This document shows, piece by piece, positions 3,427 to 54,533 of a DNA stretch of 64,000 bases. Under the pieces are notes generated by a model, which was given only the letters and a program-made list of their open reading frames with translations, did not search any database and had not been told where the DNA came from. The stretch lies in assembly GCF_000003815.2 (NCBI RefSeq), contig NC_049996.1:3457144-3521143 (forward strand). Direction: 5' to 3'. Both the position numbers and the translations under genes were made by a program. Numbering within the stretch: the stretch's first letter is position 1; each line of letters opens with the position of its first letter. The stretch is from Branchiostoma floridae (lineage: Eukaryota > Chordata > Leptocardii > Amphioxiformes > Branchiostomatidae).

Positions 3427-3675
3427 CTTCCAGTGTCTCCGCAACGCGCCTTTGTTCGATTTTGACGAGAGCTTTCTTCAGGGCCTGAAGAGTTGCAGCT
3501 TCTCCATCCCTGTTCCTCCATCTCCTCAGCATCTCCCAACACCTCCGGTCCTCATCTTTCTTCTTCCGCTCTATTCCATCTATCTGGTTCTCACTGAAGT
3601 TCAGCTTTCGAGCCAAGTTGTCCCAATGGGAACTGGCTCCATCAACAACTTTGTCGAAATACTTGTCCACATCAA
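3427..3675 (-). CDS. Death-domain exon
   Basis: A 249-bp exon with acceptor TTCTAG and donor GTAAGC. It reads DVDKYFDKVVDGASSHWDNL, ARKLNFSENQIDGIERKKKD, CWEMLRRWRNRDGEAATLQA and LKKALVKIEQRRVAETLEG. The WDNLARKL, I-D-x-I and CWEMLRRWR blocks are the signature of a Death domain. This is a homotypic interaction module for apoptosis or NF-kB adaptors. The donor at its end shows that at least one more exon lies to the left, perhaps holding only a short tail and the stop. Confidence 0.9.
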
Positions 3676-6600
3676 CTAGAACAAAAAACCATAAAACTCA
3701 GACAGTGGAAATTATAAGACGTTGTTCTCGAGATTCACATATTATTAACCTTTTCCGGGTTATCAAAAGAAAATTCTGATTTTTTAGGTGTTTGAAGAAT
3801 AAACAGATTAAAGTAGCTGCAATAGGTCTTCTTATTTGAATGTAAGTTCATCTGCGACGGTAGTTAACATAATGATATAATTCTTTAGACTTTATATGCG
3901 TACACAAAATAAAGCGCTTACCAACAAGCTTTCGACCAGTCTTCTTATTTGGTTAATACTAGGTCATCGCGATTTTCATGGGCTTTATTTATGTGCTGTT
4001 TGGTTTGGTTTTATTTGGATCTCCATTAGTGACTAATATGTCACTAGTCCGGGTAAATGATGTAAATCACCAAATGTCTGATACGAGACGGAGGTTCGCC
4101 AGGCCTCCATCCGGGTGATTTAATTTGTAGTGAATCATCAACTCCAGACAGAAGGATTTGTACCATCGCACACCGGGGCATTTCACAAACCTCCTTCATC
4201 CATAATTTTTTAAAGTGTGATGGATCTAATTCCTTGAAACATTCATTGTTCAAGGTCCAAAACAATTTTGTTGTTGCATGTATAGATTGTACATATTCAT
4301 TGAGATACGTATATAAGTATCGTGCTTACTTAGTTAACATGACTTTATCAATACCTTGCTTTGGTGGTTTCGAGGATGGGCCACTGTTGCTGAGCTGTCT
4401 TCCACGTCGCCTTTGGCTTGTCTTCGTTTCACCTGTTATCAAGGAAAGGTGACAAAGGTAATTAAGTACAACAATTTAAAGCGTTCACTCCGGTCGTGAT
4501 AATTAGATAAATCATTTTTCAATAGCACGTTTCTATTTTGACCTTTGTACTTACTCTACTTTTTGTGGTTTGGCCTTCTTTACTAAGGATACGTTTCTCC
4601 TAATAAAGATGTGCGAAAAATTGCAAATGCCCAATCTAATAATAGCATCTGATCTAGCTTTCCCGTTACTCAATATGCCTTCTAAGATTCTATGCTATTT
4701 CTGTAATGACAGTTCTTCACCGCATCTTCATGACACAAATACCGGTACAAAACCGTTTTTTTCCAGAAAAAACGGACCTGAAAAAACCGGTGGACAGGAT
4801 GTTGGACCTATTGGAAAATGAACATATTATATGAACAGGCATTCAGATTTTTTGGGGGGGGGGGGCTACCTGTCGACGAAAATGACAGCGAAGTAGAGTA
4901 GAGTCTATTGCCATTTCTACCAACTTTTACAGTCAATTGTACGGAGGCAGTTAGCTTTGTAGGATTTCAAAACGCCAGTGGGAGTGGAATACTACACAAA
5001 TCAGATTTCTTTGTAGCTAATTGGACCATTGTTTTAAGTATTGTTCATTCACAAGTTTTCATATACTAAATCAGGTCCAGGTCCAGGTCCAGGTTCAGGT
5101 CCGGACCTGGACCTGAACGTCTGGACCTGAACCGGACCTGGACCTGAATTTCTGTACCGGTACCCACCCCTAGTCTTTACACTAAACACAAAAATTAGAA
5201 AATCGTCGTAGTCGCCGGAAAGGAAATGATAGGCCAATGATGTACCTTCGTCGAAGTAGAGGTACACGGCTGCTGATGGGATCCGGCGTCGGGGTTCAGT
5301 GACTGGTTCTCCGGACTCAGCATGATGTCGGCTGAAATGGACGACTCCTTGGCTGTACATCTTCTTGGCTGGATACGGAGGCTTCCAAATCAGCCCAACG
5401 GTGCACCTGTTGCAGTCAGCCGGCGGGAAGTAGAAGTTGATACCACCTGAAACATCTAGGGGGACGCCAATCACTTCTTGACTTTCGTCAAACTTGGCAT
5501 CTATCCTTTCTTCCTTGCCCATGACGATGCGTTGTTGAAACGGCGCAACCTTCAACATGTTGGCAGCTTGGAAAAATTCTGTTGGATCATCGTCCTTGTG
5601 AACACACATGAGGTGGATGTTGTTGTTGTCTGTTGTTGCCTTGTTTGGGTTTATGATGAGGAACACTTTGTCTTCGGTGTATCTATTCCAACATACCTGG
5701 AATGCCTCAGTTGCGTCTGCAGATGCGGATGTTGATGAAACTCTCGAAGCACTTTCTTCTGCTACCTCTTGTTTGGATGCCTCATCCTGCTGGTGACCTG
5801 GTTTTCTTGAGATACTTTCTTCTGCCGCCGCCTCATTGGCTGTCTCATCAGGGTTCCCCGATTTTGTTGTCTCATCAGGGTTCCCCGATTTTGTTTCTTC
5901 TGCTAACCACTGACTTGCTGCGTTACCCTGGTTCCATTGACCTCTTATGATGCCTTCATCTGCTGCTCCCTGGTTGTCTGACTCATCACGTTTCACCAGT
6001 TCTGTTAGGTTATTTTCTTCAGCTACCTCCTGATTGGCTGGCCCCTCCTGGTTTCCTGGACCGTCGCCACTAGAGGTAGAATTTTCGCTATCATTTCCAC
6101 TTTCTTTGGCACCGGCAATCCTAACGAAGAAAAACGAAATCAAACAAAACAAGGCGAATTATTAGATAAAGCCTATCAACAATCACATACATAGTTGCAT
6201 GAATGTATAAAAAGATTGCTGTCTATTACATCCTCCTACGCCCGGTCCCCAACGGCACTAGCCTATTGGGGCCCTGCTATCTAGATGCCTACTGGCGGTT
6301 ACTGTGATTGTCGCCACAAACTAGCTGTCAACCAACCAGAGAATAGGCCTAGCTTTCTTGGGCTTTATGTTTACGAAAGCCATCTCGCAAAGGCCGCTGG
6401 GAAGCTATCAGCCAATCCTGTTACGTGTTACATAGCTCCATCCTCCTACGCCCGATCCCCAACGGCTGACTGCCCATATAAGGGTAAGCTCATTAATATT
6501 CATAAGCAGGGCGGTCAGTAACTCATCTGAGTGCACGAGACAGCAGAGGTGACCACAAGGATCTTCGACACGACTGTGGTCCCTCTGCGTAGGAGAATGG

Positions 6601-9600
6601 TCTATTAAGGAGCATGCCTTACCCGCAGAAGTGTCTTGTTGTGAATGTAACTGCGTCTTCTGTCTCTTGAAAATCCAGCCTCAGTGAAGTCCACTGGGGA
6701 TGATGTGGCTTTCTCTCCATCAGGACGACTTTGTCTGCGTTGCAATCTTTCGTCCTCCATGCCCACGGCAGGGTAACTCTCACGGACTGTAAGAAATCTT
6801 CCTCCTGTTCCTGGTGCACGGTAAGTACCGGCGTCACAGCTGAGAAAGCGTTTGTTAAGCAGTCGTCAATGGGCAGCGTCTCGACCTTACAAAAAGATAA
6901 AACGAAATTAGTACAGCTTCTTGTCAGATTTGGAGTGACATGCAACTAAGTACATGTCATTGTAACAAAACTACACAATTGTTTATAGTTTGTACATCTC
7001 TTACCTACATATAAACCAACAAGACCTGCAACGCCTGAGTGCCATAGGCAAAATTATCATGAAGACACAAAGTAGACCAAAAGTTTACCTCCAAGGACAG
7101 GGACCTTTCCGTCTCGACGCATCCTTCTGGAAACACGAGAGTGACACCGTCCTCTTCGAGCGTGCAACCATCTGGTTTGATTGTGTACGTGTTCAGCATA
7201 ACAGAGGACGATGCCTGTTGAAACGAAAGTGATATTATGCAAAATGCCACAAAATATGTATGAGAACATGTGATCGTAATGGACGTTGCATTGTATCCAC
7301 GTACCTTCCTTAGGATTTCTGCAGCAGTAAGACTGATTTTAGTACAGGACAGGGGTTCTTCGGTCATCGGTACTTTTGTAGATGGCATATCCAGCATCCC
7401 CGCGCAGCGTCTGCCGAGCACCTTCAGCAAACGCTCCCTAGTCCCTTCAGGATAAGCGAGGACGGGAAAGACCATGTTCTTGTTCTGCACGGGGAACTCG
7501 TACCCGAGCGCGGACCAGTGTCTGCCGTGGAGAGCCTGTGGCGTGATGATTGGTACGACCATTCTGGCGTTACGTTTGAGAAGATGATCCAAGATCTTGT
7601 CAGTGATGTCATCCCCTGATTTGATGACGTCTTCGCAAACCGTGACACCGTACCTGCTGGACGACTTGACCATCTGCTCCACCAGTGGCTGTACGAGCTT
7701 GTCATCGTAGTTTTCAACGTGTAGGATAACAATGTCATTACCTAGAATTCAGAAATTGAACCATGAATACTAGTATTTGATCAATGTCTAAATAAAGTGT
7801 TAGGAAAATAAGCTGTTAATCAAGACAAAGTTAGCTATTGAATATAGAAATGGGGAATAAATCGGAAATTGTAGCAACAGAAGATGAGTTTGAAGCAGTC
7901 ATTATTACCTCTCTCTTCTCTGAGGAACATAGGTGCTCTCTCTGGTAGGCAAACTTCTACAGACGCGCCCAGCAAGCGACGACACACGTCTCCAGCATCG
8001 TTGACGGTAGCAACCAACTCTTGGAACCTGCTGACGAATGTGAGCTCGTGTCTGATTCGATCACAGTCCGCCAGATTCAGCGCTCTGCATGTCTCCATAC
8101 AGTCCAGGACTGGACCGATCGTGCGGACTGCACTGATGTCAGCTGGGCTCGTTGTGGGCTTTATCATCACTAGTCCGTCACCACCTGAGTTCTCTGCAAG
8201 TGCAAAGTGTTTCCATTAGTTAGGTAGTCTCAGGCCAGTCCTTTATCAAAGCAAACAGAATGTGTCATGCAAAATGAGAAAACAAACATGGTGTACCTGC
8301 ATGGGACATCCTTAGTGCACCGCTACCACGCATCCAGACGGCGTTAAAGTCTTCTGGAATACTGATGTTAAAACTTTCAGTTAGCAACAGTACAAATAGT
8401 ACAGTAATAGGACAGTACACAGAAAGTGATCACCCTCTTGCATGTATGGGCTGATCAATGAAAGGGTATGATTTACTAAAAAAACATGTATAATTGGCCT
8501 CACCGACTGGATCCCATTGCCGTTTCTTGCTCGATGTCAGAGAGCGGATGGAATGATAGTTTGCTCGCTCCTTCATCTGACTCCTCTCCGAAGCACCAGT
8601 CATACTGGATGGAGGGAATCCACTTCTCCTTGATCTCGAAGAGACAGCTGCTGAGAAACTTTCGAACGGGAAGTCCCTGTGTGAACACTGCCTTGTCTTC
8701 AGCTTCAGACGACAGAAGCTCCACCTTCAGGTAGTGCTTCACCTTGGTCACCACGAACTGTTGCTTTGCATCATCGGTAGGAAAGCGGCCGCAGCCTGCA
8801 AACACCTGGGACACCTCAAGACCAAACCTGCGCACACAGATCGCTTGTAGACGGTAGAACATGCCGCTGGGGAGAAACATGTTGTCGAATACAACATGCA
8901 GAGGGTACCGGAATCTGCTCATGTGCCCAGGATACAAGGTGCTGTCGTCAGACTTTGCGGCCAGAAGAGATGGTACGAAGTAGAGCTCTTCTTTCTCAGG
9001 CTCCTGCGTTGTGGCATCAAACCCACTGATCGGCGTGGCGTTGCAGATGAGGTAGTACTTCTCCATCAGTCGCTTTAGGAAGGGCTTGTTCCGGAGTAGG
9101 TAGGGTTTCTGCATCTTCTGATCTGCTTTGGTCCAGATGATTGTCAACAACCTGTCGCTGAGGATGCCTTCGTTCTCCAGCCTCCTCCACATCTCGGCGA
9201 CCTCCCCACCCATGCTCCTGTCTTGTTGGTACTTAGGGACGGTAATGATGGTCTTGAAGACGTCAACCATCACCTGGGGTCGAAGGGCCACGTGATCACG
9301 GAGGATGTGTTCGTTGATGAAGATGATGTCACCAAGGTCGTGCAGGAAGGTCAGGATGTCGGCAACATGACTGTCATCAGTGATGCCCACGTCACGGGCC
9401 AGTTCTACGGCATCTTGGAAAGGGCAGAATGGGTCGTCTTCTCCCCTCTTGTCCATCAGTTTGGACTTCAGATGAAGCCAGGTTATAGGCACTTCCTGAC
9501 CCATGTACCACTGAGACTTCGCCACCTCACGGAGGTACTCTCGGAGCTCGTCAATGTCGCTGTTATCCTCGCTGAAGTTGTCGATGACAAAAATCTTTGG

Positions 9601-12600
9601 TAAGACGTGTTTGCCGGCAGCCTTACCACTGATGTGATCAAGTATGTCTTTCTTGTACTCCTCAATCTCCGACTGAAAACCAAGAGCATAGACTCAGCTG
9701 ATGAAGAAATATTGATTGATTTAAATAAGTAATAAAAAAAGGCCAATTCTTTTAGCCATTGATGCGGCAAAGTGATAGCCTCCATAGCAGCTCTCTATGC
9801 CNNNNNNNNNNNNNNNNNNNNNNNNNNNNNNNNNNNNNNNNNNNNNNNNNNNNNNNNNNNNNNNNNNNNNNNNNNNNNNNNNNNNNNNNNNNNNNNNNNN
9901 NCATGAAAATCCGCGATGACCTAGTATTACCCAAATAAAGAAGACTGGTCGAAAGCTTGTTGGTAAGCGCTTTATGTTGTGTACGCATATAAAGTCTAAA
10001 GAATTATATCATTATGTTAACTACCGTCGCAGATGAACTTACATTCAAATAAGAAGACCTATTGCAGCTACTTTAATCTGTTTATTCTTCAAACACCTAA
10101 AAAATCAGAATTTTCTTTTGATAACCCGGAAAAGGTTAATAATATGTGAATCTCGAGAACAACGTCTTATAATTTCCACTGTCTGAGTTTTATGGTTTTT
10201 TGTTCTAGTTGATGTGGACAAGTATTTCGACAAAGTTGTTGATGGAGCCAGTTCCCATTGGGACAACTTGGCTCGAAAGCTGAACTTCAGTGAGACCCAG
10301 ATAGATGGAATAGAGCGGAAGAAGAAAGATGAGGACCGGAGGTGTTGGGAGATGCTGAGGAGATGGAGGAACAGGGATGGAGAAGCTGCAACTCTTCAGG
10401 CCCTGAAGAAAGCTCTCGTCAAAATCGAACAAAGGCGCGTTGCGGAGACACTGGAAGGTAAGACAAAAGGCCATAGAGAGCCTGCTATGGAGGCTAGCAA
10501 AGTGAAAGCTTGCTAGAAACACAAGCGCACCCCCTATCCGTGTCTAATTGAACAAAGACGAGTGACAAGACCTCAGAGTAAGTTGTGATTTCTTCTAATG
10601 CATAAACCAAAGGTTGGATCTACTTTGAAATCAGGAATATATGATCTAGGAAAACACAGGTTCAAGTCATAGTTTTAGATTGAAGAATTTCATGTAGGGT
10701 TAAGTTGAAAATAAATTAACGACGTGCTAGATACCTCGGTGACCATATCCTTGTGTGTGAGGACCAAGACGATAGGTGGCTTGTCCTTCCGTCCGTGCAC
10801 CAGACCGTGTGTGCGGACTGAGTTCAGCCAGTGGTCCAGGTAGTCTGAACAGGTACGCAAACGCTTATATCAGTCTCACCATTTCAATAATCATACACCA
10901 GGCAGGCTACGAAAGGTAATTCAAGTTCAATTTCAGTGCCTATGCTCGGGCAAATTTAAGCTTTCACAGTCTAACGGTACCGGTAAGCTCTCGTTTACCG
11001 TCATAAAATGACATTCAACAGAAGGGGTACCTACCTCTTCCAGTGACGAGGTTGTCCGCAGCTGCCTTGTAGTCCTGATCAGGAACTGGGTCTGACAGCT
11101 TCTGCAGCAGTGACATGACCAGGATGTAGATCCCGCGGGGGGTGAAGAAGCACTGGTGCGAGCCGTAGTACGTGGCCTGGCCGCCGAAGTCCCAGATGGA
11201 GAGACGCGGGTGTTCGGCTGTTCCTAGCTGCTCCTCGGTTACGCCACCTTGGAGTCGCTCTTTGGCCTTTGTTATGACGTCATCAGGAATGTCTTGTGTT
11301 TGCTGCTGTACTGTGTCATCTTGTAGTCGCTGTTGGTGCTGTGATTGATGTGATGTACCCTTGCCTGCACTTTCTGCTCTACCTGGAAAGAAATCTTTTA
11401 TGTTTTAATTGATCTTACTCGAAATGCAAAGAATGTGCCTGGACGATCTTCAGCTAGCCCCTTTCAAGGTGGTAACTTCTGGTTTTCCTGTAGGAACTAC
11501 CGCTCGAGTATTTGGCTCGAGACCAAGAGGTCGCGGGTTCGAATCCAGCTGCCGTGTCACCGATCTTGTGCTCTTGGGAAAAGCACTTTACACGACTTTC
11601 CTCACTATACTCAGGTGAAAATGAGTACCAAGCTTCGGCTAGGGCCGTCCCATAGATAGGACGTTAAATGGAGGTCCTGTGTCTGGGAAGAGCCATACCC
11701 CGGGCACGTTACAAAAACCCCACACGTGCGATGGTGCGGTGTGAGATGGTGCAAATCTTTCCGTCTAGAATTGGTGATTCTCCACAAATCACCCGGACTC
11801 CAGGAAGAATAGTGACATATAGTCACTAATGGAGATCTGTATAACCAAATCCAAATCAAACCAAACCAAACTACCAACTCAATCTGCTACTGGTGAACGT
11901 CGTTAAGCCTCAAAGGCAGAAAACATATCGAAGAACAACATTGAATATTAACAACTTATTTTAAACTACACTGTCCAGGTCTATGTTTCTATTGTGCATT
12001 TCTAACTAATTGAGAAATGTAGATAAAAAAGTTTCTTACTACTCTCTTCCAGCGTTTCAGTCTGTTGATTTTGTGTCTGTTCCTTACTATCTTCCATATT
12101 TGCTGTCTGTAGACTTCGTGACGGTGTCTCCTCTTTTAGTGGTTCATTTTTCTGCGTCTGAAACGTCTGCTCTCCTGTTTCTTCCTTTGGTTTTTGAATC
12201 CCAGCATCTTATGTGAACAAGATGAAACCAGTAAGACATCAATGGTACTCTAAGTCTTCCAATGTTCCTAAAAATCGAACCATACCAATGCGAATGACCA
12301 TGCGAATGTAGCTGCCATCCTTCTTGTCCTATATAGCTATACATACAGTATATGTGGACTATCAAGCTTTTATGGTTCGTCTTGTCGCTTGCTTGATCCT
12401 CTACGTTGACATTAGTGCTCTGTGTACAAATCATGCTATGATAGACGTCAGCGTCATTACATACCCGTTGGGGTTTTGCTGTCACTCTGCTGCTGGACTA
12501 CTTCTTGGGGTTGTGACATTGTCAGCCTGAGGGTTACTGATTTGTCCCGTTCTTGTTGCTCCGCTAAGCGTTCTGCCATGGTTTCCTTGAACTCGTCTGG

Positions 12601-15600
12601 CTCCTCTGTAATCAAAACGTTGTGTATTGCACATTATCATATAGCCAGGGGACGTTGACAAATCAGAAGTCCCCATTTCATGTTGGTTATGACGTCATAA
12701 CACATGGAAAATAATTTAACAGCATTAAATAGTTTCATTAACACACGTGTGTTAATGATTTCGGAAAGCTTGAGCCAATCAGAAAGACAGACACGCAGGA
12801 CTCAATCAGAATGAGAGATACATGAATCAGAATAGCACAGAGCTAGGAGGAAAGACCTGACCCCGGAGGGAGGAATGATCATGAATACAGTTAATGAATA
12901 CAGGAGTTTGCAAGTTTGTGTAGGCTATATAATAATAACGTTAATGACACGCCTGTTCCTCGGTGTACATGGTGTCATAACGCCTGGCCCTTTGCTATAA
13001 CCACCTAATAAAACAAGGTGGATTCATTCGATGGTTATGGCAAAGGACCAGGCGTTATCACACCATATACACACCTCGGGGCGGGTCATTAACCCTTAAT
13101 TGTTGTAGCTGAGGCTATTTTAATAATTTCATTTCCAACTATGACATTTTAAGACCCAATGTTTTGTAATATACAGTTTTCAAGAATTTGTAAGATATCT
13201 GAAAAAAAAACGAGTACCTATCATGGCATAGCATGTGTTGATATGTCCATACAGCAATCAAATTTCGGACCTTTTGCCTTCTGCCAAGTTGTGGTCATCA
13301 CGCTCGGTGAAATCTCGATGCCGTCTGTTATCGGTTCATCCTCCACAGCCTCCTCTCCTGTCAGCCTCCTGACGACGCAAGTCTTCCCGGATCTGTACTG
13401 ACCAACCACGAGCCCGCGCGTGCTGTGCACCGGTCGCGCCCCCTGGCGGCAGGCCTGGGAGTACAGCTGTTGCATGCCAGGACCACGCAGCTGTATTTCC
13501 AGTGGAACACTGCTGTCTTCTGTTTGTCTGCTGTTTCCCTTCATGATAATACAAACTGGTTAACGTTCTTAACATGATAAAAGCTGTTTAAAGCGTACGC
13601 CATACACACATGTATGATAATCTCCAAGCAGTAGCATATACGTACCTGATTTTCCCACAAAAAATACATGGAGTATGTATACACTGTATATAGAGCACCT
13701 GAACATGATAGTTACAGCTGCAAAGCACGCGTAGTGGAAAAATGGTACACGGTAGTGTGCTAGTATGGATATATATCAGAACATACGGGCCCTGCTTTTT
13801 CGGAGTCAAGAGCACTCAGCGGAGTTTGTGTGAACAGAAATTCAGAGTACTTATCTACCCTACTCCTGGATTTGACTTGAGTAACTTCGAAATCATACTT
13901 CTCGCTCTTGGGGTGATGTCAAGTAGCGTTTTCTTATGTCCAACTTCGAGCCGCAACTCCCGTTGAGTTAAGTAAGCTTCAGCGGAGTGTACTCCAAGTC
14001 GACTGGAAACACACTCTCACTCACTCACTCACTCACTCACTCACTCACTCACTCACTCACTCACTCACTCACTCACTCACTCACTCACTCACTCACTCAT
14101 TGAATCAATCAGAGAGAAAGAGAGAGAGAGATGGTTTATTGCCCTTGACATTAAAAACTCTTGCAGCACATTAAAAAAGGCTGAATTGTCGTTTTCTTTA
14201 CAGTCAGTATTTCAACCTCTAACTAGTTAACGCAATTAAAAGGATTGAGTGACAAAATAACATCCACTTGTTTACAATAACTGGTCAGTTATTACACAAA
14301 GAAACATTCACTACTGATTACAAATTACCCGTCTTGGTTCAGCAGCTTTACACAGTACGGTAATGGGCTATTAGCGAAACGAGCAGTTCTACACCGGAAG
14401 TGGGAGAGTTTGTCTTTGTTTCTTAGTGACCTGTCATGGGTATCCCCTCGTCTAGATGGAAGCCAATTACTGAATTTTTCAGAGTTGACAAGAGTTCGTG
14501 CAAACACTCTCTAAATCACTCAGCCACACACCCACACAATCACTCACTCACTAAATCACTCACTCACTCACTAAATCACTCATCCACTCACTAAATCACT
14601 CATCCACTCACTCACTCACTCACTCACTCACTCACTCACTCACTCACTCACTCACTCACTCACTCACTCACTCACTCACTCACTCAGAAAGTCACTCAGA
14701 AGGTCACCGCAGTGGTCGTATGGGCTTCACGAAAGCAGGCAGTAGTGATCCATCGAAAATCGAAAACTCAGCCTATTATAATTGTGCGTGACGTTTAACA
14801 CCCAACATGTCAAACGTCTATAGTATTCATCAACCCTTATATCTAAACCCTTACCTCATCCCTACTTGCCGCCTCTGCACCAGCCTTCATGAGAAGTTCA
14901 GCAACACCAACATGTCCTCTTGAAGTTGCCTTGTGAAGTGGCGTGGCTCCAGACTGTAACAATAAGGAATACAGACGATGTACAATAGCAAGTGAACTCA
15001 TTATCATAATAAACATGAATGTGAAGTTTAACACTCAAATATACCAGTCACCAGTACTTAAGCAACCACCCTTACCTGATCCTTACTGTCCACATCTGCT
15101 CCAGCCTCCAGGAGGAGTTCGACAACACCAGCATGTCCTCCTGAAGCTGCCTCGTGAAGTGGTGTGGCTCCAGACTGTGAATGTAAGGGATAGAGATGAT
15201 GTTAGGTAGCAAGTGAAGCTTTTCCATGATAAAAAAATAAGGTAAATTTGCGTGACGTCACCAGTAGGAATTAGGAATCCTTACCTCATCCGTACTGTCC
15301 ACCCGTGCTCCAGCCTTCAGGAGGAGTTCAACAACACCAACATGTCCTTCTGAAGCTGCCTTGTGAAGTGGCGTGCGCGTGGCTCCAGACTGTAACAGTA
15401 AGGAATAGAACAACAACAAGCATGGGCGGATCCAGGATTTTGCAAAGGGGGGGGGGGGCGCATATGCTGTTGTAGCTCAGGTCGTGGGCTGAACATTTGA
15501 TATAACGTTAATAAACGAACGAACACTGATTTTTATAGTTAGCAATCACATTCAACAATCATATTTTTGGCCTGGGGGAACGGCCATCGAAACATTTTTT

Positions 15601-18600: not shown

Positions 18601-21600
18601 CATTCCATCCGTTCTGCTTACACTGCTCTCTGAGATCTTCGTACTTGAGCTTTTTCCTTTCAAAGGCATGCTGAATGTTTTCCTCCCAAGGGACGGTAAG
18701 TTCAATGATAAACACTGTCTTCTGGGAATCTGACCACAGGAAAAGATCTGGTCTTAATGTTGTGAAACAGATGTGTCTTGGGAAGCATAGCTGGCGTTCG
18801 AGGTCTACTGACATCTTCCACAGTCAGGATGCCTCCTTCTGGGTTGTCTCTAGTTCTTGTTGCAGCTTTCTGCCCCTGTTTGACGAAAGGTATGGAACTT
18901 TGGGCTCGTGTTAAGCTTACTCCCTCCTCTACTTTGCCTCGTTTCTCTTCCAGGGTGGCTGCTAGTAATGTTGTTTTCGTCAAGATATTCCATGACGATC
19001 AAAAGATAATATAGGCCAAAAGATTAACCTTGTGCTCTATTCGGACAGTGCACATGGCTGAACGAGTTTGTTTGGGACTTATAATGAGTTGTGTCATTCT
19101 CCATCAAAGCAGACAAGATAAACAAGATGCAACCCAATGCCACCCAATCCAGATAATTGCACGCGATTTTTAACTGAACGAGTTCGACAGTAATTTTTTT
19201 ATTCAATCCTCGGAAACAAGATTCAGAAGCTGCTGTAGTTTTCAAGTTTCTTGTACATTGGCACCCCCTTCCAGCTTGTACAGTTGTAGCGCATTATGTA
19301 ATATTCCGGCTAACCTATGATCGTTGGAAGCAAGACGCTTTTATCAGATAAAGCTCCTTGCTGGGAGGATCTCAGGAAATTCACGAAAAATTTGTGTCGG
19401 CACGAGGAATTGAAACACAATCGACCGGTTCACGGGCCAGGAGAATTTGTAAAGATAGATACGTTGCAAAGTGCTTGAATAACACACGTTTGGGCCGTAC
19501 CACTTGGGATTAGAAATGCATGCATGTCGGTTGGTAAATACATCATGGATGCCTTCAAACCTCCGCTCACCTGCTGGGATGATTGGAGTGCTGTCGCTTC
19601 GGGAGGACGCGGATGTCATCAGACGGAGCAGCGGTCCTTAGATGTTTCAGCCCTCATCCGTTACATCCTCTCGCTGTCGGGCCCGGCAGTGGTGGCCAAT
19701 CCACTACCCATCCGCTCCTCCCGGCTTCCAGCCTGCTTCTTCCCTCGTCTTCCACAGCCAACATGAGGCAGCCTCTGCTGCTTCCCCTATCCTGTGCACT
19801 GCATTCTTTCTCGCTATTCCTGTTACTCCTACTGCTGTTAGTAACTTCCATGTTGATTGGGCTGGGAAGCCCCGGGACCCTACTTCTACCGGAAACAGCC
19901 AGGACTGCCATCCCTTCTCTTTGCAACTCTGCAGCAGTTCCTGGTACTTGCTAGCTTTCCTCTCATGTGCTTCTTCACATCTCTCCTCCCACGGAACTGT
20001 GAGCTCGATCACTATGATCTTCTTCCTCTCCTCTGACCATATTACCATGTCTGTCCTCAGGTTCGTCTGAACTACTTGGAAGTACAGCCTTCTTCCTAAG
20101 TCCACTCTCATTTCCCACGAGCTCGCCTTCTGCAATATGCTAGTTGCTGCTCTAGCTGATGCTTCTCCCCCTCTTTTAGAAATGCAATAGCTGGCATGTG
20201 CCTTGTTTCAACTTGGCGTTTCTTTCTCCTCTCGACCTCAAGGATGCTTGCTAGTGTTGAGAGCACCTTGTCATGGCGCCACCGATATCTCCCCTGGGAC
20301 AGCGCTACTTTGCAACTGGAGAGAATGTGCGCCATCGTACCCCTGTCGCCACATAGCTTGCACGCTGGATCGTCTCTGAGTTTCCACCTGTAGAGGTTTG
20401 TGGGTGAGGGAAGTGTATCGTACACCGATCTCAGTAGGAACGATATTCGGAATGGTTCAAGGTTCCACAGATTTGCCTAGGTGGCCTTTCTGCTTGGTAA
20501 GTTCCATCTAGTCCAGGCTCCCTGTGCTGCTAGTTCAACGGCTTTGGCTCTGCGCCCTTCTTCCTCCAGGTGTCTCACCTGCTCCTGGATCATGGCTCTC
20601 CTCTCTTTTCTATCAGCCTTGCCCCACTGCTGAAAGTGGGAGGCCCCTAGACCTTGTCGTCCGATGTTTGTAATTCCAATTATGTCTCGCAGGATCAGCA
20701 TCCCTTCTGCCTGTGTGACAAGGGAGTCGGGTTTAAACTTTCTGCCTGCTCTAGTTACCACTCCTGCCTGGTTAACCTGCTTGTCCTGTGAGTCTCTAAA
20801 CATCATGGCAGTTCTGCACTTTGCTACCTTGTACTCCTCCACTACCGATGACAGTGGGAGCTGTAACTGACTTGATTTGGAATAGAACCCCAGTGCGGTA
20901 AAACTCGGAGGGACACCTAGCCACTTTCTCAGGTGCTTATTGACTTTCCTTTCCACTTCAGCTACACTTGTCAGGGGAATGTCGTACACTGACAGCAGCC
21001 ACATCAGCCGTGGAAATAGACCATGCTGATACAACCATGCCTTGAACTTCCCTGGCAACCCAGACTTCTCAATCCTTCTTAACCACTCCTCTGCCTGCCT
21101 TACAGTGCTGCTGACATTCTTCTTGTCTGTTAGGGACTCGTCAAACCACTTTCCCAGGCACTTGATTGGGTTGCCCACAATTGTTGGAATGGGTTCACCT
21201 TGTACCTCGAGCTAGAACCTGCTGGTTACCTTCCCTCGTCTGATCACCATGCATCTAGACTTCTTTGGTTTGAACCTCATTCTTGCCCAGGTGGCCATGT
21301 GATCCAGCTCTGACAGCATCCATCTTGCTTCTACATGAGAAGTGGTTGTTAGTGTTATGTCGTCCATGAATCCCCTCAATGGGGTCTGTCTTATTCCTGA
21401 CTTCATTCTAGGTCCTTTAGCTTTTAACTTGCTGCTGCTTCAATGATGAGATTCATTCCCATGATGAAAAGGTTTGGAGAGATGGTGCAACCAGTCACTA
21501 TTCCCTTCTCTAACCGCTGCCACTGTATTGTGAAGTCTGCTGTTCTGAACCGCATCTGGATGCCGCCAAAGTAACTGCTGATCATCCCCTTCACTTTTGC

Positions 21601-24600
21601 TGGGATGTGGTAGTGGTCTAACGCCACCTGGATCAGGCCGTGGGGGATGGAGCCATAGGCGTTTGCTAAATCCAACCACACTATTGTCAGGTCACCGTTG
21701 CTTGCTTTGGCCTCTCTGATCAACTGGGAAGGACCCCTGTGTGTTCCAGGCAACCGGAAAAACCTGGAATCCCGCATTTTTGAACAGAAGTGTCCACATA
21801 GTTGTTCTCTGTCACATAGGTTACCATTCTCCTAGCCAGTATCGAGAAGAAAATCTTACACTACACGCTCAGTAGTGAAATTGTTCTGAATTGGTTGATT
21901 ACAGTCGAATTTTCTTCTTTTGGTACGAAACACCCTTCTGCCTTCTTCCAGCTGGCCGGTATGCTGCCCTTAACCCAAATTCGTCGGAGCAACCTCCACA
22001 GTCTTCGCAAGAGCAGGGGACATTTCGGGCCTGGAGCTGACGCTGCTCTGGCTTTCCTTACGACTTCCTGCACTTCCTTCCATGATGGTTCGCTAATGTT
22101 GAGAGGCTTCTCTGGTTTGTCTGCCACTTCTATGCTTGGATTAGCTTCAAGGGCTGCGTCTTTGAGCTCGTCGTTGTGTGTACTACTCAAAAACTCCTCG
22201 ACTTCATCTTTGGAACTGGTCAGCTGCCCTGACTTAGCTTCACCCAACAGGGTCTTTGTGAATTTGAATGGGTCTTTGATGAACTGCGCCCTCCTATTCA
22301 TCCTCTCTTTCCTGTTCTTTCTTATGCTTTCTGCTTTTCGTAGTTTGCACAGACGGTAGCGGAGCCTCTCTAGGCACCTTCTGTACTGCTTGTTCAAACC
22401 CTTAATCTCCTTCCTTAATCGCTGGATTTCACGCTCCCTTCTGTTTGGCTGCTTTGCAGTGCAGGGCTTCTTCTTTTTCCCTTCCACAAAAAATATAATG
22501 TCACAAACGGGAAAGTGGCGTCGGTTGTATAAAAGACAAAGGATCCCGGTCTGCTGTCAAACAACAACACTCACTTTAACCCCTACTTCACCAACTTTGA
22601 TTTATTTCTGTGTGTTTTAGTAAAATTTAAATCTTTTCTGTAATTTTCAAGTAAAGAACTCCAGACGTTTACCGCGTATATAAATCCGATACATTCGGCA
22701 CATTGATTCAAACAGGGCGTCGGTTTGTAAACAAACTGGAGGGCCGACCAGTCTAATCCAGCTTCCCCGTCAAATAATCCCCTTTCTTCCCAAGAGTTTG
22801 ATTTACATTATCTGCTTTATTACAAGTTGCATTTATAGAGATGTGGCTTTTTTATTTCAATTTTCTTATCAAAGATGCCAGAACTGGCGGAAGGTTAACG
22901 TTACCATGCATGTCGAACGCAAGCCGACACATTTAACAGCGGCTTGTGCTCTGTTACCGCCCGTATTGAATCACACGAACTGTAGTTCATTGTAGAACAT
23001 GGGTGTAAGGAGTTATCAGAAAGAATACGTCATTGAATCGGAAAGCGAAGGTTGATATTTCCGAGGCGTTGATTATTGATAGAACAGGACAGGGCCAGAG
23101 TCAAGCCGATAATTTAACAGACGAGTACAGTTCTCAATGAAGGGCGCAAATATGTAGCAAGAGGAGTGTTGCTTCCATGGATGTGTTTTGAAAACAAAAT
23201 GTATACAAATAGTCGACTTCCTCGACAAACTATCCGTACTCTGTCGGTTAATTTTATGTGTGTTTAGCGCAGATATAATGTACGTAGGGAAGAACGGATT
23301 TTGTTTACAAATGGCGACGTGTTCCGCGCGATCTCGGCGACCGCGCGGGGAAGGCCCCGGGAATGTCGGAAATTGATATTTCCTTGCATGACTCAGTTTC
23401 GGTATTTTATAAATATTGGTGGCAGAATACACAAAAATACAGCAAAGAAGGGACTGAGAGGGCTGTGTCCGTAAGACGCGTCATCGTGGGAATGACTTTG
23501 AAAGCTTGGGTATTTTTTACTGTGCTGAGATAGGCGTGCATTTGAAAGGGGAGTTCGCGGGAAAAATTCTGCTGGTCTAAGTGCGAATAAAACATTTCTA
23601 GTTTCCGCCCGCAAAGGTGTGAACCAATCAGCTACTGTTGCCATTAGTGAAATGGGTGATTGACATTGATTCTGCATGAATATGCATGCTTTTAAGATAG
23701 AATTTTTAGGGCCTTTTTAGACCATCGTGATAACCTAAAAAAGTGGATACAGAATAAATCTTAAAACTCTTCTAATTAAACAACATACGATAATAAGAAA
23801 ACATCCATACAATCAGGTGGGGTTTAACATGCGTGTCACTATCTTTTCTAATCACAAAGCAACCTTTTATGTATTTACCTATCTTAGCATTATGAGGGCT
23901 GTCGGGTCTAAAGACATTGTCAAATCTACTTCTATCAAGTATCGTAAGATCTGTAATGTTTAGACATAGGAATGTGAATAACTTATCTCGTAACATAATG
24001 GAGATGATGTTAGATATAAAATGAAGTCTTTTCAAGTAAATTTGCGTGAAGTTTAACTCTAAACATGTCATCAACAGTAGTAAGCATCAACCATTACCTC
24101 ATCCCAACTGTTCACCGGTGCTCCAGCCTCCAGGAGGAGTTCAGCAACACCAACATGTCCTGCATAGTGAAGTGGCGTGGCTCCAGACTGTGAAAGTAAG
24201 GAATAGAGATGATGTTAGAGAGCAAGTCATATCGTCACACTATGTGTGTGGCGTTTAACACCCAAAAATATCAATCACCAGTAGAAATCATTAACCCTTA
24301 CCCGATCCCTACTGTCCACCCGTGCTCCTGCCTTCAGGAGGAGTTCAGTAACACCAACATGTCCTCCTAAAGCTGCATAGTGAAGTGGCGTGACTTCAAA
24401 CTGTGACAGTCAGGAATAGACGTGATGTTAGATAGCATTATCATAATACAATTGGCATGCATAACTTTTAACATTCAAGCACGCCAAACACCCTTATCAT
24501 ATGGTCGTCTTTGTTTGGATCATAATGCACTTTTACTGGGTCGCTTGACCGGGGCCAATTCTCAAAAAGAAATTACCAGCAAAAATGTATTATGAACCCA

Positions 24601-25689
24601 AAAAAAGACGGAAGAAGGCCCCAAAGGGTCTGCTACGAAGGCTAGTAATAGGCTAACCCCAACATACTTAACACTAAACATGCGTGGCGATAGATACTCA
24701 GATAAGCCTTGGAGATCGCGTGGTGCAGCGGCAGCGTGTTTGGCTCAGGATTTTTTTTGCATAGAAGTGCACTTCACAAATGCACACATGGATTCAATAA
24801 CACTGTTGGCATACAGTACAACAAAAGGCGTAATTTTGAGATTTTATTGCGATTTGTTGACAAAAAAAAGGACACTTTTGGCTCCTGTGCATTAGTTTTG
24901 CAACCAAATGACCTAAACTTTGGTACAGGGGTGCACTAGATATTCATTCAAGTGACCCCTGTATTATATATGGCATGAACCACTTCAAAACGATTTTGGG
25001 GTCATTTTCCGATGGCCACAGAGGGTCAATGACCTCAAGGTCGTTGACCCATTTTAAGGCTTTCTGACTTGCATATCTGTATGCCAATGTAACTTAATTA
25101 AAAAGGTAACCAATCGCATAGCCCGAATCAATATCGTGAGGAGGATTTGGCTGCCAATCAGTGAGCTCGGTGTTATGTGGAAGAGTCCATTGTTACACGG
25201 AGGGGTTCATTTAAAAAAAATATTCATCTTTGGACTGGGGATTATGGAAAGTCTTTCAATGGGTGTATTTTTGGACTGGCATATTTGCAGTTTTACATGG
25301 TGGGGGCTGGAAGAGTCCATTCTTGCACGGAGGGGTTTTTTTTTAAAAGTCATATTTTGGACTTTAGTATGTCAAAGTCATTAGTAAAAGTGATTTTCCA
25401 AATGGGTAATTTTGTTGTTGCACATGGAGGGAGATGGCTGAAATATGCTGTATTTGCTCTCAAGCAGGTTTTGATTTTCATTGCAACGACCCTACGTTTT
25501 TTTACCACCATATATGAACAAAACATCAATCATTGCTTTCATTTGTTGGAGTAGAGCTAGCTAGCCCAAACAGATTATCAGACAACGGAAGACACATACA
25601 AACAAGAAGCGATCATTAGGATTGACCCCCTCCGCTAACAGCTGCTTCACTCTGTCCGTGTCTCCTTCCCCTGCAGCCTCCCACAGATC
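3427..25689 (-). CDS. ROCO-family signalling gene: ankyrin-Roc-COR-TIR-ZU5-UPA-Death (19 exons placed, both ends incomplete)
   Basis: Exons, listed 5' to 3' on the minus strand: 25600-25689, 24302-24400, 24098-24187, 15285-15389, 15076-15174, 14855-14953, 13271-13490, 12465-12605, 12040-12207, 11035-11382, 10735-10844, 8504-9672, 8297-8361, 7909-8193, 7305-7741, 7089-7214, 6623-6885, 5183-6120, 3427-3675. Each has AG before and GT after, and every internal junction matches in phase. That is strong evidence for a single transcription unit of about 1,700 residues. Family knowledge: ankyrin-Roc-COR-Death resembles the non-kinase part of DAPK1, and ZU5-UPA-Death is the tail of PIDD, UNC5 and ankyrins. 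The TIR between COR and ZU5 is unusual. Likely a cytosolic GTPase-regulated adaptor in immunity or cell death (inference). No start codon exon was found, and the Death exon ends with a splice donor, so both ends are missing. Two junctions (13271 donor, 5183 donor) use weak sites. Confidence 0.8.
3996..4195 (-). mobile_element. SINE 3' fragment
   Basis: The reverse complement matches the 3' half of the SINE at 11490-11870, including GTCACTAATGGAGATC and the (CCAAAT/CAAACC)-rich tail. Its head is missing. Confidence 0.75.
4738..5170 (+). mobile_element. Short element with GGTACCGGTAC ends and GGTCCAGGT palindromes, copy 1
   Basis: Left end has ACCGGTACAAAACCG, right end TGTACCGGTACCCAC. Near the right end GGTCCAGGT/ACCTGGACC units repeat on both strands. 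A homologous copy is at 47551-47990 with the same internal order (GGACCATTGTTTTAAGTAT shared). It overlaps the downstream tail of the ROCO UPA open frame. Confidence 0.8.
5183..6120 (-). CDS. Linker and UPA-like domain exon
   Basis: A 938-bp exon. The first ~150 residues are low-complexity, acidic and Ser/Asn/Gln-rich, with repeated NQEVAEE-type and KSGNPDET units (a 27-bp DNA duplication near 5845-5900). The second half reads VFLIINPNKATTDNNNIHLM, LKVAPFQQRIVMGKEERID and RRIPSAAVYLYFDEGTSLAY. That layout, and its place between ZU5 and Death, fits a UPA domain. The open frame continues to 5049, but that tail is made of GGTCCAGGT repeats from an inserted element, so I end the exon at 5183, where the phase fits the Death exon. 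Confidence 0.75.
6225..6500 (-). repeat. Interspersed repeat, copy B (inverted to 1-262)
   Basis: The reverse complement matches 1-262 along most of its length, including ends and interior. An ATTAATATTCATAAGC motif lies at its end, and the same motif recurs near 34570 and 35195. Located in the ZU5-UPA intron of the ROCO gene. Confidence 0.85.
6623..7214 (-). CDS. ZU5 domain (two exons)
   Basis: Exon 7089-7214 reads TIKPDGCTLEEDGVTLVFPE GC, the entry strands of ZU5 (compare the G-x-L-x-x-x-G-V-x-L-x-x-PEG pattern of UNC5 and PIDD). Exon 6623-6885 continues with NAFSAVTPVLTVHQEQEEDF, SVRVTLPWAW and WTSLRLDFQETEDAVTF. This is the second half, with the conserved SPVL and proline-ending strand. 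ZU5 in these families packs against UPA and Death domains. Confidence 0.82.
7305..7741 (-). CDS. TIR-domain exon
   Basis: A 437-bp exon starts GNDIVILHVENYDDKLVQPL, then YGVTVCEDVIKSGDDITDKI, RNARMVVPIITPQAL, HWSALGYEFPVQNKNMVFPV and LAYPEGTRERLLKVLG. The order of the first strand, the acidic/Gly-rich BB-loop region, the helix-IITP strand and the W-E segment follows TIR domains. TIR domains either recruit other TIR proteins or cleave NAD+. The catalytic Glu normally follows W by four positions. Here the E is six after W, so enzymatic activity is doubtful. The call rests on pattern only. Confidence 0.7.
7909..8361 (-). CDS. Post-COR linker exons
   Basis: Two exons, 8297-8361 and 7909-8193. 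The first (65 bp) reads IPEDFNAVWMRGSGALRMS. The second (285 bp) is helix-rich (PVLDCMETCRALNLADCDRI and on to DAGDVCRRLLG) and matches no domain I know. Phases are right on both sides, so they are part of the ROCO transcript. The second may fold as a small helical domain ahead of TIR. Confidence 0.75.
8504..9672 (-). CDS. Large exon: end of Roc plus COR domain
   Basis: This 1,169-bp exon starts SEIEEYKKDILDHISGKA, continues with the final Roc strand (KIFVIDNFSEDNSDID), and then carries the COR domain. Landmarks are PITWLHLKSKL, LTFLHDLGDIIFINEH and EGILSDRLLTIIW. They are followed by the COR-B portion with the conserved YFVPSLL. COR is the dimerisation and GTPase-coupling module that always follows Roc. 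No stop or frameshift is seen. CAG acceptor at 9673, donor GTGAGG. Confidence 0.92.
9802..9901. other. Assembly gap (100 N)
   Basis: Exactly 100 N, a placeholder length. It lies between the COR exon and the inverted Death-exon copy, so the local order is not secured. Confidence 1.
10209..10457 (+). pseudogene. Inverted duplicate of the Death-domain exon
   Basis: The plus strand carries an almost identical copy of the Death exon, including its TTCTAG acceptor and GTAAG donor. One visible protein difference is N to T in FSE(N/T)QIDG. Homology with 3420-3982 covers the upstream intron too, from about 9902 to 10462, and stops abruptly six bases into the donor. It lies in the intron between the THKD exon and the COR exon, opposite to the host gene. 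It is bounded on the left by the 100-N gap at 9802-9901. It could be a real inverted duplication, part of a second gene, or an allelic misassembly. Confidence 0.75.
10735..10844 (-). CDS. Roc GTPase exon with THKD (G4)
   Basis: A 110-bp exon encoding DYLDHWLNSVRTHGLVH, then KPPIVLVLTHKD. THKD is the G4 base-recognition motif, with T in place of the usual N, as in many Roc domains. Donor GTATCT. Phase 0 out, matching the COR exon. Confidence 0.88.
11035..11382 (-). CDS. Roc GTPase exon with DFGGQ (G3)
   Basis: A 348-bp minus-strand exon. After a further Gln-rich lead-in (SHQSQHQQRLQDD) it contains LSIWDFGGQATYYGSHQCFF. That is the Walker B/G3 DxGGQ motif of Roc, followed by the FFTPRGIYILVM strand. 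CCAG acceptor and GTAGGT donor. Confidence 0.9.
11490..11870 (+). mobile_element. tRNA-derived SINE
   Basis: A perfect B box, GGTTCGAATCC, sits near 11537 after CTCGAGACCAAGAGG. Then come CTTGGGAAAAGCACTTTACA and a tail with GTCACTAATGGAGATC. A tRNA-like head plus unrelated body is the SINE plan. In a ROCO intron. Confidence 0.8.
12040..12605 (-). CDS. Roc insertion exons (Gln/Glu/Thr-rich)
   Basis: Two exons, 12465-12605 and 12040-12207, on the minus strand. The first reads EPDEFKETMAERLAEQQE, a segment typical of Roc domains after switch I, then becomes Q-rich (QEVVQQQSDS). The second is Gln/Glu/Thr-rich throughout (EETGEQTFQTQKNE, EQTQNQQTETLEES) and probably disordered. Phases match across the pair and to the next exon. 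Together with the start of exon 11035-11382 they form a long insertion between switch I and the Walker B strand. Confidence 0.75.
12941..13092. mobile_element. Palindromic MITE flanked by TTAA
   Basis: The arms TTAATGACACGCC and GGCGGGTCATTAA, and the inner GTGTCATAACGCCTGG / CCAGGCGTTATCACAC, pair almost along the whole 152 bp. TTAA occurs at both edges, as for piggyBac-type targets. ROCO intron. Confidence 0.75.
13271..13490 (-). CDS. Roc GTPase exon with P-loop
   Basis: The minus-strand frame contains LVVGQYRSGKTCVVRRLTGE, with the P-loop GQYRSGKT (G1), followed by PITDGIEI, the switch I pattern of Roc domains, and TTTWQKAK. The 220-bp exon fits phase 0 in and phase 1 out, matching both neighbours. 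The open frame extends upstream to an ATG at 13544, so the acceptor at 13490 (ATACAG) is a choice made on phase and could be wrong. The donor AAAAG/GTCC is weak. A better-looking donor 22 bases further on would create a stop at the junction. Confidence 0.75.
14010..14100 (+). repeat. (CACT)n microsatellite
   Basis: Uninterrupted ACTC/CACT tetranucleotide array of about 90 bp in a ROCO intron, followed by an AGAG tract. Confidence 0.98.
14130..14515 (-). mobile_element. Probable LINE 3'-end fragment
   Basis: ATGGTTTATTGCCCTTGACA plus AAGGCTGAATTGTCG is shared in style with 49980-50090 (GGTTTATTCAAAC, AAGGCTGAATTG). This resembles reversed CR1/L2-like 3' ends that stop in simple repeats. No coding part left. 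Confidence 0.45.
14530..14695 (+). repeat. (CACT)n microsatellite with AAAT/CCAC interruptions
   Basis: Second CACT array, same motif as 14010-14100; the two arrays bracket the LINE fragment. Confidence 0.97.
14855..14953 (-). CDS. Ankyrin exon 6
   Basis: A 99-bp phase-0 exon encodes TPLHKATSRGHVGVAELLM and KAGAEAASRDE. It is the last ankyrin unit seen before the Roc exons. The acceptor is the TTACAG at its upstream side and the donor is GTAAGG. Confidence 0.85.
15076..15174 (-). CDS. Ankyrin exon 5
   Basis: A 99-bp phase-0 exon encodes SGATPLHEAASGGHAGVVEL and LLEAGADVDSKDQ, a consensus 33-residue ankyrin repeat. Flanked by a CACAG acceptor and a GTAAGG donor. Confidence 0.85.
15285..15389 (-). 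CDS. Ankyrin exon 4 (two residues long)
   Basis: A 105-bp exon reads SGATRTPLHKAASEGHVGVV and continues as a normal repeat. Two extra residues (TR) before PLH come from a 6-bp in-frame repetition of an ACGCGC-like sequence. It lies 8.7 kb from ankyrin exon 3, across an intron carrying a LINE and other insertions. Confidence 0.8.
15424..16945. mobile_element. Element with GGGGGGGCGC ends (decayed DNA transposon?)
   Basis: The left edge GGGCGGATCCAGGATTT runs into a G-tract then CGC. The right edge reads GGGGGGCGCCCCCCACCCC then TAAATCCGCGGATG, the reverse-complement pattern. Inside are repeated short phrases (TTTCAGATAGTCAAGATTTC and variants) and an ATGA microsatellite at 16552-16570. No coding frame recognised. 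Confidence 0.5.
16950..18100. other. No gene seen
   Basis: AT-rich intronic sequence of the ROCO locus with a 30-bp direct repeat (TTTTAGCAGGAAAATGTA near 17154 and 17187). No supported feature. Confidence 0.4.
18300..22490 (-). mobile_element. Decayed non-LTR retrotransposon with restriction-like endonuclease (R2/R4/NeSL/Hero type)
   Basis: On the minus strand, in order: a basic N-part and RT start (21861-22487: KARAASAPGPK, PASWKKAEGCFVPKE); RT core (21424-21777: IVWLDLANAYGSIPHGLIQ, GIVTGCTISPNLF); the catalytic FMDD segment (21212-21406: PLRGFMDDITLTTTSH); thumb (20477-21178); a CCHC finger (CKLCGDRGTMAHILSSC, near 20330); and a PD-E-x-K-like endonuclease (19704-20135: TDMVIWSEERKK..ELTVPWEE). 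RT followed by a finger and a C-terminal restriction-like endonuclease is the plan of early-branching LINEs. Frameshifts and stops separate all pieces, so it is dead. It sits in the ROCO ankyrin intron. Confidence 0.85.
18581..18983 (-). pseudogene. Second, diverged restriction-like endonuclease fragment
   Basis: Minus strand, two overlapping frames. One has SSIPFVKQGQKAATRTRDN. The other has LRPDLFLWSDSQKTVFIIEL then TVPWEENIQHAFERKKLKYE. It aligns with the endonuclease at 19704-20135 but differs at many residues and even in the metal-site surroundings (RPDLFLW vs RTDMVIW). So it is a separate element of the same family, inserted in the same orientation next to the first. Confidence 0.75.
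22495..24090. other. No gene seen
   Basis: ROCO intron sequence between the LINE and ankyrin exon 3. It includes a short GC-rich patch near 23330-23360. Nothing coding is supported. Confidence 0.4.
24098..24187 (-). CDS. Ankyrin exon 3 (three residues short)
   Basis: A 90-bp phase-0 exon reads SGATPLHYAGHVGVAELLL then EAGAPVNSWDE. Compared with its neighbours it lacks three residues between TPLHYA and GHVGV, an in-frame 9-bp loss in the first helix. Flanked by CACAG and GTAATG. Confidence 0.8.
24302..24400 (-). CDS. Ankyrin exon 2
   Basis: A 99-bp phase-0 exon encodes one full 33-residue ankyrin repeat. It contains TPLHYAALGGHVGVTELLL and ends KAGARVDSRDR. Acceptor CACAG and donor GTAAGG flank it. 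One repeat per exon allows the array length to change by exon duplication. Confidence 0.85.
24670..25560 (+). mobile_element. Repeat with tRNA-like A box and GGACACTTTTGGCTCCTG unit
   Basis: TGGTGCAGCGG near 24720 fits a pol III A box. Downstream, GGACACTTTTGGCTCCTG..CAACCAAATGACCT is the same unit as the tandem repeats at 33965-34345. GGCTGAAATATGCTGTATTTGCTC near 25438 is shared with the end of the insert at 36850. Confidence 0.6.
25600..25689 (-). CDS. Ankyrin exon 1 (N-cap-like repeat)
   Basis: The minus strand reads DLWEAAGEGDTDRVKQLL, the typical first helix pair of an ankyrin array, followed by a VNPND turn. It is 90 bp, with acceptor CTACAG before it and donor GTATGT after. Because it starts at an acceptor, an upstream exon with the start codon must exist, but none was recognised between here and 41 kb. 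This is the most 5' exon I can place. Confidence 0.75.
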
Positions 25690-54530: not shown

Positions 54531-54533
54531 AAC

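Follow-up and report, generated by a model that had tools for sequence, protein, structure and literature searches.

The window analysed here, 64,000 nucleotides of Branchiostoma floridae DNA, carries on its minus strand a chain of exons best explained as a single real gene that is under selection and belongs to a small ROCO family. As far as sequence can establish it, a single collinear gene links ankyrin (Ank) repeats to a Roc-COR GTPase, in which the GTP-binding motifs are present, and to a Death domain. With the help of relatives, a CARD-like and a divergent TIR domain are well supported in the stretch after COR and before the C-terminal part, and the module which follows TIR is probably a ZU5 domain that ends in an HF-C site.

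Organisation of the gene and its relatives

The exons for Ank, Roc, COR, TIR, the ZU5-like module, the module in UPA position and Death follow one another in this order from 25689 to 3427 (Table 1). The 14 exons between 13538 and 3427 code for 1527 amino acids without a stop; their phases are compatible and their borders are AG/GT. 5' of Roc, an Ank N-cap exon and five Ank repeat exons were identified on the same strand. An earlier sequence-only reading of this DNA had listed the motifs GQYRSGKT, DFGGQ and THKD, COR, and TIR-like, ZU5-like and Death signatures in order on one strand, had claimed compatible splice phases and had placed the start of the Ank exons at 25689. All this was re-derived. 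At the end of the Death exon is a phase-1 donor; therefore, the coding sequence extends past 3427. The start codon and the last coding exon of the gene were searched for and neither was located.

Table 1. Features of the gene and of its Roc-COR intron (positions in the window).
Feature	Positions	Strand	Remarks
Ank N-cap exon (DLWEAAGEGDTDRVKQLLAEGVNPND...)	25600..25689	-	also in copy C18:3.41, flanks 85% identical
Ank repeat exon	24302..24400	-	
Ank repeat exon	24098..24187	-	three residues short
Ank repeat exon	15288..15389	-	approximate ends
Ank repeat exon	15076..15174	-	approximate ends
Ank repeat exon	14855..14953	-	approximate ends
Roc exon 1	13271..13538	-	P-loop GQYRSGKT and switch I region; Roc model 4-43
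Roc insert exon (roc2)	12465..12605	-	phase 1-1
Roc insert exon (roc3)	12040..12207	-	phase 1-1; not found in C12 copy
Roc exon with DFGGQ	11035..11382	-	Roc model 57-119 together with next exon
Roc exon with THKD (roc5)	10735..10844	-	
Inverted copy of Death exon region	9902..10462	+	99.1%; inside insertion-like segment
Assembly gap, 100 N	9802..9901		in Roc-COR intron
COR exon	8504..9672	-	
Short linker exon	8297..8361	-	
CARD-like exon	7909..8193	-	
Divergent TIR exon	7305..7741	-	
ZU5-like exon 1	7089..7214	-	
ZU5-like exon 2	6623..6885	-	ends RHFC|G (candidate self-cleavage site)
Low-complexity linker and module in UPA position	5246..6120	-	
Linker exon	4355..4432	-	
Death domain exon	3427..3675	-	phase-1 donor at end

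Pfam was run on the spliced window protein from Ank to Death. It reported Ank (2.8e-46), Death (4.7e-17; 62.3 bits versus a cut-off of 22.6), COR-A (1.3e-12) and Roc (5.3e-11), with Roc preceding COR-A. The Roc domain, whose sequence contains the three GTP-binding motifs, is split: its first exon and its fourth plus fifth exons match separate parts of the model. In between lies an insert of about 145 amino acids rich in Gln, Glu, Ser and Thr, and upon its omission the Roc match improved to 7.1e-15. Two exons (12040-12605), located between switch I and DFGGQ, contribute to this insert; as both are phase 1-1 they can be skipped without a change of frame. At E up to 1 the window protein had no Pfam match for TIR, ZU5 or UPA, and the assignment of these modules thus depends on relatives. 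The proposal of a ROCO gene which joins ankyrin, Roc-COR, TIR, ZU5, UPA and Death modules was therefore borne out by Pfam for Ank, Roc, COR and Death. Through the relatives it also held for TIR and, with moderate support, for the ZU5-like module; UPA remained a matter of position, and a CARD-like exon had been overlooked.

The link of the Ank exons to Roc is seen in a tandem copy. There the cap exon recurs, its flanks conserved, and nine to ten Ank exons, depending on threshold, lead up to Roc, all within 4.6 kb. In the window the Ank exons are spread apart by an intron which contains a reverse-transcriptase-like element. Its open frames were located on the minus strand at 20108-22556 and resemble a non-LTR retrotransposon by eye. 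Elsewhere in the window three plus-strand open frames (48037-49143, 50973-52100 and 54378-56255) are coiled-coil-like and, by eye, mutually similar.

Relatives were sought in the whole genome (513 Mb, 431 contigs; contigs C1 to C19 carry matches at megabase coordinates). For Roc the best 150 of 370 candidates were scored, for Death the best 150 of 267. Seven loci, i.e. six besides the window, share COR, TIR, ZU5-like and UPA-position exons, and each has the UPA-position module next to COR on one strand. Four of these window-type copies form a tandem array on one strand of contig C18 (~3.38-3.47 Mb) with the window copy at the high-coordinate end. The others are at C18:16.19, C12:2.96 and C10:16.98 Mb. 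A Death match is near five of the seven copies; near C18:3.41 and C18:16.19 a Death exon was not found in the DNA searched, with the best 150 of 267 candidates scored. A sister group with a related arrangement has loci on C172 and C6.

The ZU5-like exons and the module in UPA position

On the window protein itself the proposed ZU5 domain had no Pfam match. A hand-made family consensus had Pfam ZU5 as its best match (0.044), and one of eight members, a distant one, matched it at E 0.013; both were below the 21-bit cut-off. A search with the ZU5-like family profile returned no match, phmmer of the ZU5 plus UPA region against the PDB returned nothing relevant, and BLASTP of the ZU5 of the C12 copy against the PIDD-like ZU5 domains gave no alignment. 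The claim was made probable by two other comparisons. First, a reference profile was built from 14 sequences of the same genome, 12 above the Pfam ZU5 cut-off and two from the sister group (16 ZU5 loci were listed, 11 of them were taken into the alignment). This profile matches the structures of ZO-1, UNC5B and ankyrin. With hhalign the ZU5-like family aligned to it at 59.9% and E 8.7e-5, in register over an IPPGA-like stretch. Second, the window module (7214-6623) could be aligned end to end with a tandem pair of PIDD-like ZU5s at the C12 copy, which are clear domains (1.3e-14 and 1.1e-5) and end in VDHFS and THFT.

The ends of the ZU5-like modules were then compared. The window module ends in RHFC. 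Of the seven window-type copies, six have HFC and one has QFS; TFS occurs at two sister loci. At two more loci, C9:17.78 and C14:2.05 Mb, the corresponding ending is HFQ; C14:2.05 has a Roc match upstream. Phe followed by Cys or Ser is thus found in nine of 11 related ends and HF followed by Gln in two of 11, in a comparison that excludes three of 12 ZU5-like matches (C9:4.76, C14:2.00 and C15:4.05 Mb). Self-cleavage occurs at HF/S behind each ZU5 of PIDD and at SF/S in NLRP1 and CARD8; Ser, Thr or Cys is able to start such reactions (PMC3210808).

In the window protein a low-complexity linker of about 140 residues follows HF-C before the next module begins. That this module is a UPA domain, as had been suggested, was not upheld by sequence. 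None of ten family members matched Pfam UPA, and hhalign with the corresponding sister-group module, the identity of which is itself unproven, gave 1.2%. The UPA label of the post-linker module comes from its position and is not supported by its sequence. The best match of its profile (E 0.0039) was a large unrelated toxin chain; it consisted of weak repeated pieces and was taken as chance. The UPA of NLRP1 and CARD8 takes part in self-oligomerisation (PMC7794386), a property which would fit here if the module were a UPA.

The gene might well be real and still not involve autoproteolysis. ZU5 and its successor would then be structural elements as in UNC5 and ankyrins, and the whole protein would be a scaffold. 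We consider this plausible, although less likely than not. The HFQ ends, the putative, position-derived UPA fold of the following module and the long linker after the motif are compatible with it; it leaves unaccounted for, however, the presence of Phe and Cys or Ser at the very same place in most related ends and the HFS and HFT of the neighbouring PIDD-like ZU5s. These features argue for a self-cleaving ZU5.

The TIR and CARD-like exons

The case for TIR is similar in kind. The claim stood up in a profile comparison with hhalign and failed with Pfam on the window exon and with a single-sequence fold model. Three of ten family members matched Pfam TIR_2 at E up to 1 (best 8.2e-4). From 19 weak genome matches, 12 were taken as a TIR reference set; all 12 of these domains match Pfam TIR_2. 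In a single hhalign comparison the family profile aligned with the 12-domain profile at 98.2% and E 5.6e-14. A bacterial TIR NADase, with two of its chains at E 0.024 and 0.04, was the best match of the family profile in the PDB; unrelated ATG7 chains came next, from 0.28, and animal TIR chains from 0.38. A direct phmmer search of the exon against the PDB yielded nothing relevant. The single-sequence AlphaFold model was poor (mean pLDDT 44.3), and a fold search with it gave no usable match.

The family differs from ordinary TIR domains at one position. The fourth residue after a conserved Trp, which from the alignment of the PDB profile we take to be the position of the catalytic Glu, is Gly in seven of seven members of the window family, Asp in three of three of the sister group and Glu in 12 of 12 ordinary TIRs of this genome. 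TIR NADases require a conserved Glu (PMC10022894). Lacking this Glu, the TIR is expected to act through binding and not as an NAD+-cutting enzyme; it is probably a scaffold rather than an enzyme. A catalytic TIR was disfavoured on account of the Gly. An active NADase effector restrained by Roc-COR, as may hold for bacterial Roc-COR-TIR proteins, would agree with the TIR effectors on bacterial Roc-COR proteins (PMC8195603), with the bacterial NADase chains as closest PDB profile matches and with an invariant Glu two residues further on in the window-family TIR. Against the uniform Gly at Trp+4 versus the uniform Glu of the ordinary TIRs, we regard it as improbable.

The CARD-like exon scored 18.5 bits against Pfam CARD, below the cut-off of 23.9. 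With Pfam CARD, five of 11 family members gave matches at E up to 1, the best of them at 2.6e-5. In the PDB the family profile matched best to an MBP-ASC construct, in its ASC part (E 0.058). A single-sequence AlphaFold model showed three long helices at a pLDDT of 68.1; a fold search with this poor model gave no meaningful match.

Variation of the family and integrity of the window gene

Across the genome the modules of the C-terminal part keep company with Roc-COR. The TIR exon matches 36 places, 17 of them at E 1.2e-14 or better. All but one of these strong matches (16 of 17) follow a same-strand COR match at a distance of no more than 5 kb; at C4:27.94 Mb the distance is about 24 kb. Beyond the seven window-type copies this gives nine strong TIR loci within 5 kb downstream of COR. 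The UPA-position module was found at 12 loci. Nine of these have COR (seven) or Roc (two, on C14) upstream within about 5 kb; for two on C9 and one on C15 no COR or Roc was listed upstream, with Roc scored for the best 150 of 370 candidates.

The set of adaptors differs among relatives. The sister-group loci on C172 and C6 continue after TIR with a DED-like exon; an exon which has a ZU5-like start and a following module comes next and Death last. The DED-like exons (L069:398-670 and L070:573-794), positioned between TIR and the ZU5-like module, matched singly at 5.9e-4 and 1.4e-4, below cut-off, and when joined across an assumed junction at 1.7e-6, with the cut-off again not reached. The ZU5-like start matched at 7.3e-4 in one locus and had no match in the other. 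Upstream, C172 has exons for Roc, COR and the CARD-like domain; the ~0.75 kb between Roc and the Death match of a possible preceding gene yielded no Ank exon. A close COR copy (84%) at C18:5.545 Mb has Roc and CARD-like exons, and the genome searches gave no TIR, ZU5-like or UPA-position match for it. From this copy and the sister-group variants we conclude that adaptor modules vary around a Roc-COR-CARD-like core. In the C12 copy the Ank exons are separated from Roc by the tandem PIDD-like ZU5 pair (L033:3326-4619), which has their orientation. The pair may belong to the ROCO gene or to a neighbour; therefore, the Ank-Roc link is weaker in C12. Similar ZU5 and Death matches recur at C12 2.90-2.94 Mb.

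The exons of the window gene are, judged by substitution patterns, under purifying selection. In comparisons with two paralogs dN/dS was below 1 (0.00 to 0.82) in 24 of 25 cases, one exon being counted as two pieces; in the remaining case it was undefined because dS was zero. The paralogs retain 44 of the 48 splice dinucleotides which conserved phases would predict. The tandem array, the Death exon undetected in two of seven copies and the insertion in the Roc-COR intron could suggest a decaying, functionless gene copy; with low dN/dS against two paralogs and 1527 stop-free codons this is very unlikely.

The 100-N gap interrupts the intron which separates COR from the last Roc exon, and the inverted copy of the Death exon adjoins the gap. 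In each of 12 COR loci examined (of 38 COR matches in the genome) roc5 is upstream of COR on the same strand, and in the 11 of these outside the window the interval from roc5 to COR is without N. As all 11 join Roc and COR free of gaps, the gap is probably harmless to the reading as one gene. The C12 copy, which is gap-free, has the first, second, fourth and fifth Roc exons, COR, CARD-like, TIR, both ZU5-like exons, the UPA-position exon, the linker and Death in this order, with Roc to Death within about 7.5 kb; roc3 and a short exon, x1, were looked for in it and not found. In two gap-free copies the COR, CARD-like and TIR exons are within about 2.7 kb with the same splice phases. The Roc-COR intron of a paralog aligns to both flanks of the window insertion and gap: the flanks meet there and the inverted Death copy is absent. 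Elsewhere, the same intron carries about 380 bases of its own.

That a scaffold joined two contigs at the gap and thereby merged two adjacent genes, Ank-Roc-COR and CARD-TIR-ZU5-Death, is hardly credible: it takes its appeal from a gap which separates Roc from COR with an inverted Death exon abutting, whereas the proposed split is between COR and TIR, where gap-free copies show the exons closely spaced in identical phases, and at the gap itself the 11 other loci have Roc before COR and the paralog intron has both flanks meeting. The split-gene or misassembly reading was thus rejected on the strength of the paralogs and the empty site.

The insertion-like segment in this intron (9776-10496) has imperfect inverted arms (TAGCCTCCATAGCAGGCTCTCTATGG and a near complement), and TCACTTTGC is repeated on both sides. 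The inverted Death-exon copy is inside, the site is empty in the paralog, and the N gap conceals a part. It could be a DNA-transposon-like element with a captured exon, or an assembly artefact.

Known systems and a possible mode of action

DAPK1 consists of a kinase, Ank repeats, Roc-COR and Death. The window gene resembles it in having Ank ahead of Roc-COR and Death C-terminal, as its identified exons end at Death; it differs by the CARD-like, TIR, ZU5-like and UPA-position modules between COR and Death. A kinase, N-terminal in DAPK1, was not among the Pfam matches of the Ank-to-Death part. PIDD1 has the plan LRR, two ZU5, UPA and Death. The likeness here is a ZU5-like module, a further module and then Death, and HF-C in the window compares with HF/S in PIDD (PMC3210808). 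Unlike PIDD1, the window gene has one ZU5-like module, a long linker after the motif, and Ank, Roc-COR, CARD-like and TIR modules in front; no LRR family was among the Pfam matches of the Ank-to-Death part. In NLRP1 and CARD8 the FIIND, i.e. ZU5-UPA, is followed by CARD. A sensor part (in NLRP1), a ZU5-like module and then a death-fold domain are shared, and possibly the logic of release is too, yet the window gene ends in Death and theirs in CARD. NLRP1 has its NACHT where the window gene has a Roc-type GTPase.

The groups of ROCO proteins distinguished in a review are the LRR-Roc-COR forms, those with a C-terminal kinase and the DAPK1 group; TIR, ZU5 and CARD do not occur in it (PMC6337361). 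In Aplysia ROC and COR occur in TIR proteins, some of which are MyD88-like; like the window gene these unite TIR and Roc-COR in one animal protein, and Death is among the domains drawn. They differ in that no ankyrin, ZU5 or CARD is named alongside in the passages on them, and ZU5 does not occur in that paper at all (PMC9334734). Bacterial Roc-COR (AP-GTPase) conflict systems also combine Roc-COR and TIR in one protein (PMC8195603); theirs have an LRR sensor and a variable C-terminal effector, whereas the window TIR is internal and probably non-catalytic. The union of ROCO and TIR is thus known already. A paper on RIP kinases describes lancelet proteins carrying ZU5, LRR, Death and kinase; the order of the window gene was not found in the passages that list them (PMC9573974). 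Shuffling of death-fold domains in lancelets is known as well from TRADD-N expansions in Branchiostoma (PMC8195603).

The sequence-only reading was aware of no characterised protein with this exact order. For the order itself this agrees with our literature searches, which covered open-licence papers and did not turn up the arrangement seen here with its CARD-like, ZU5-like and Death modules; the combination of ROCO and TIR was already known from Aplysia and bacteria. Its other proposal, a fusion of the DAPK1 and PIDD plans, we consider doubtful. A kinase and an LRR were both missing from the Pfam matches of the exons covered, and the DED-like exon of the sister group points to wider shuffling.

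How might such a protein work? We give about even chances to a selected ROCO-family gene whose product is a GTPase-gated, self-cleaving death or immune scaffold in the manner of PIDD and NLRP1 with a non-enzymatic TIR. The Ank repeats would bind a partner or ligand, and a GTP-dependent rearrangement of Roc-COR would free or cluster the tail. ZU5 would cut itself after HF with Cys as the nucleophile. The cut would leave a C-terminal piece, the UPA-position module plus Death, held non-covalently as in PIDD, NLRP1 and CARD8. CARD, TIR and Death would then recruit partners as nucleating scaffolds, the TIR acting by binding and not by cutting NAD+. The most likely physiological role is in innate immunity or regulated cell death.

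A bolder reading, which we regard as tentative and rather doubtful, extends this to a lineage-specific family of GTPase-gated self-cleaving death platforms. Each would unite in one chain an Ank sensor, a Roc-COR switch, CARD-like, pseudo-TIR and Death adaptors and a Cys-dependent ZU5 cut site; the sister group would add a DED-like nucleating adaptor. If this is true, the PIDDosome and NLRP1 would have a counterpart among ROCO proteins, and animals would possess a second way of building death-fold signalling assemblies, through a GTPase. Should the ZU5 cut itself under the control of Roc-COR, this would link the ROCO switch of LRRK2, DAPK1 and MFHAS1 to the release mechanism of PIDD, NLRP1 and CARD8 and offer a compact animal model for a Roc-COR GTPase which steers death-fold assembly. 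The tandem copies and the DED-like sister group would also show the assembly of such architectures within one genome.
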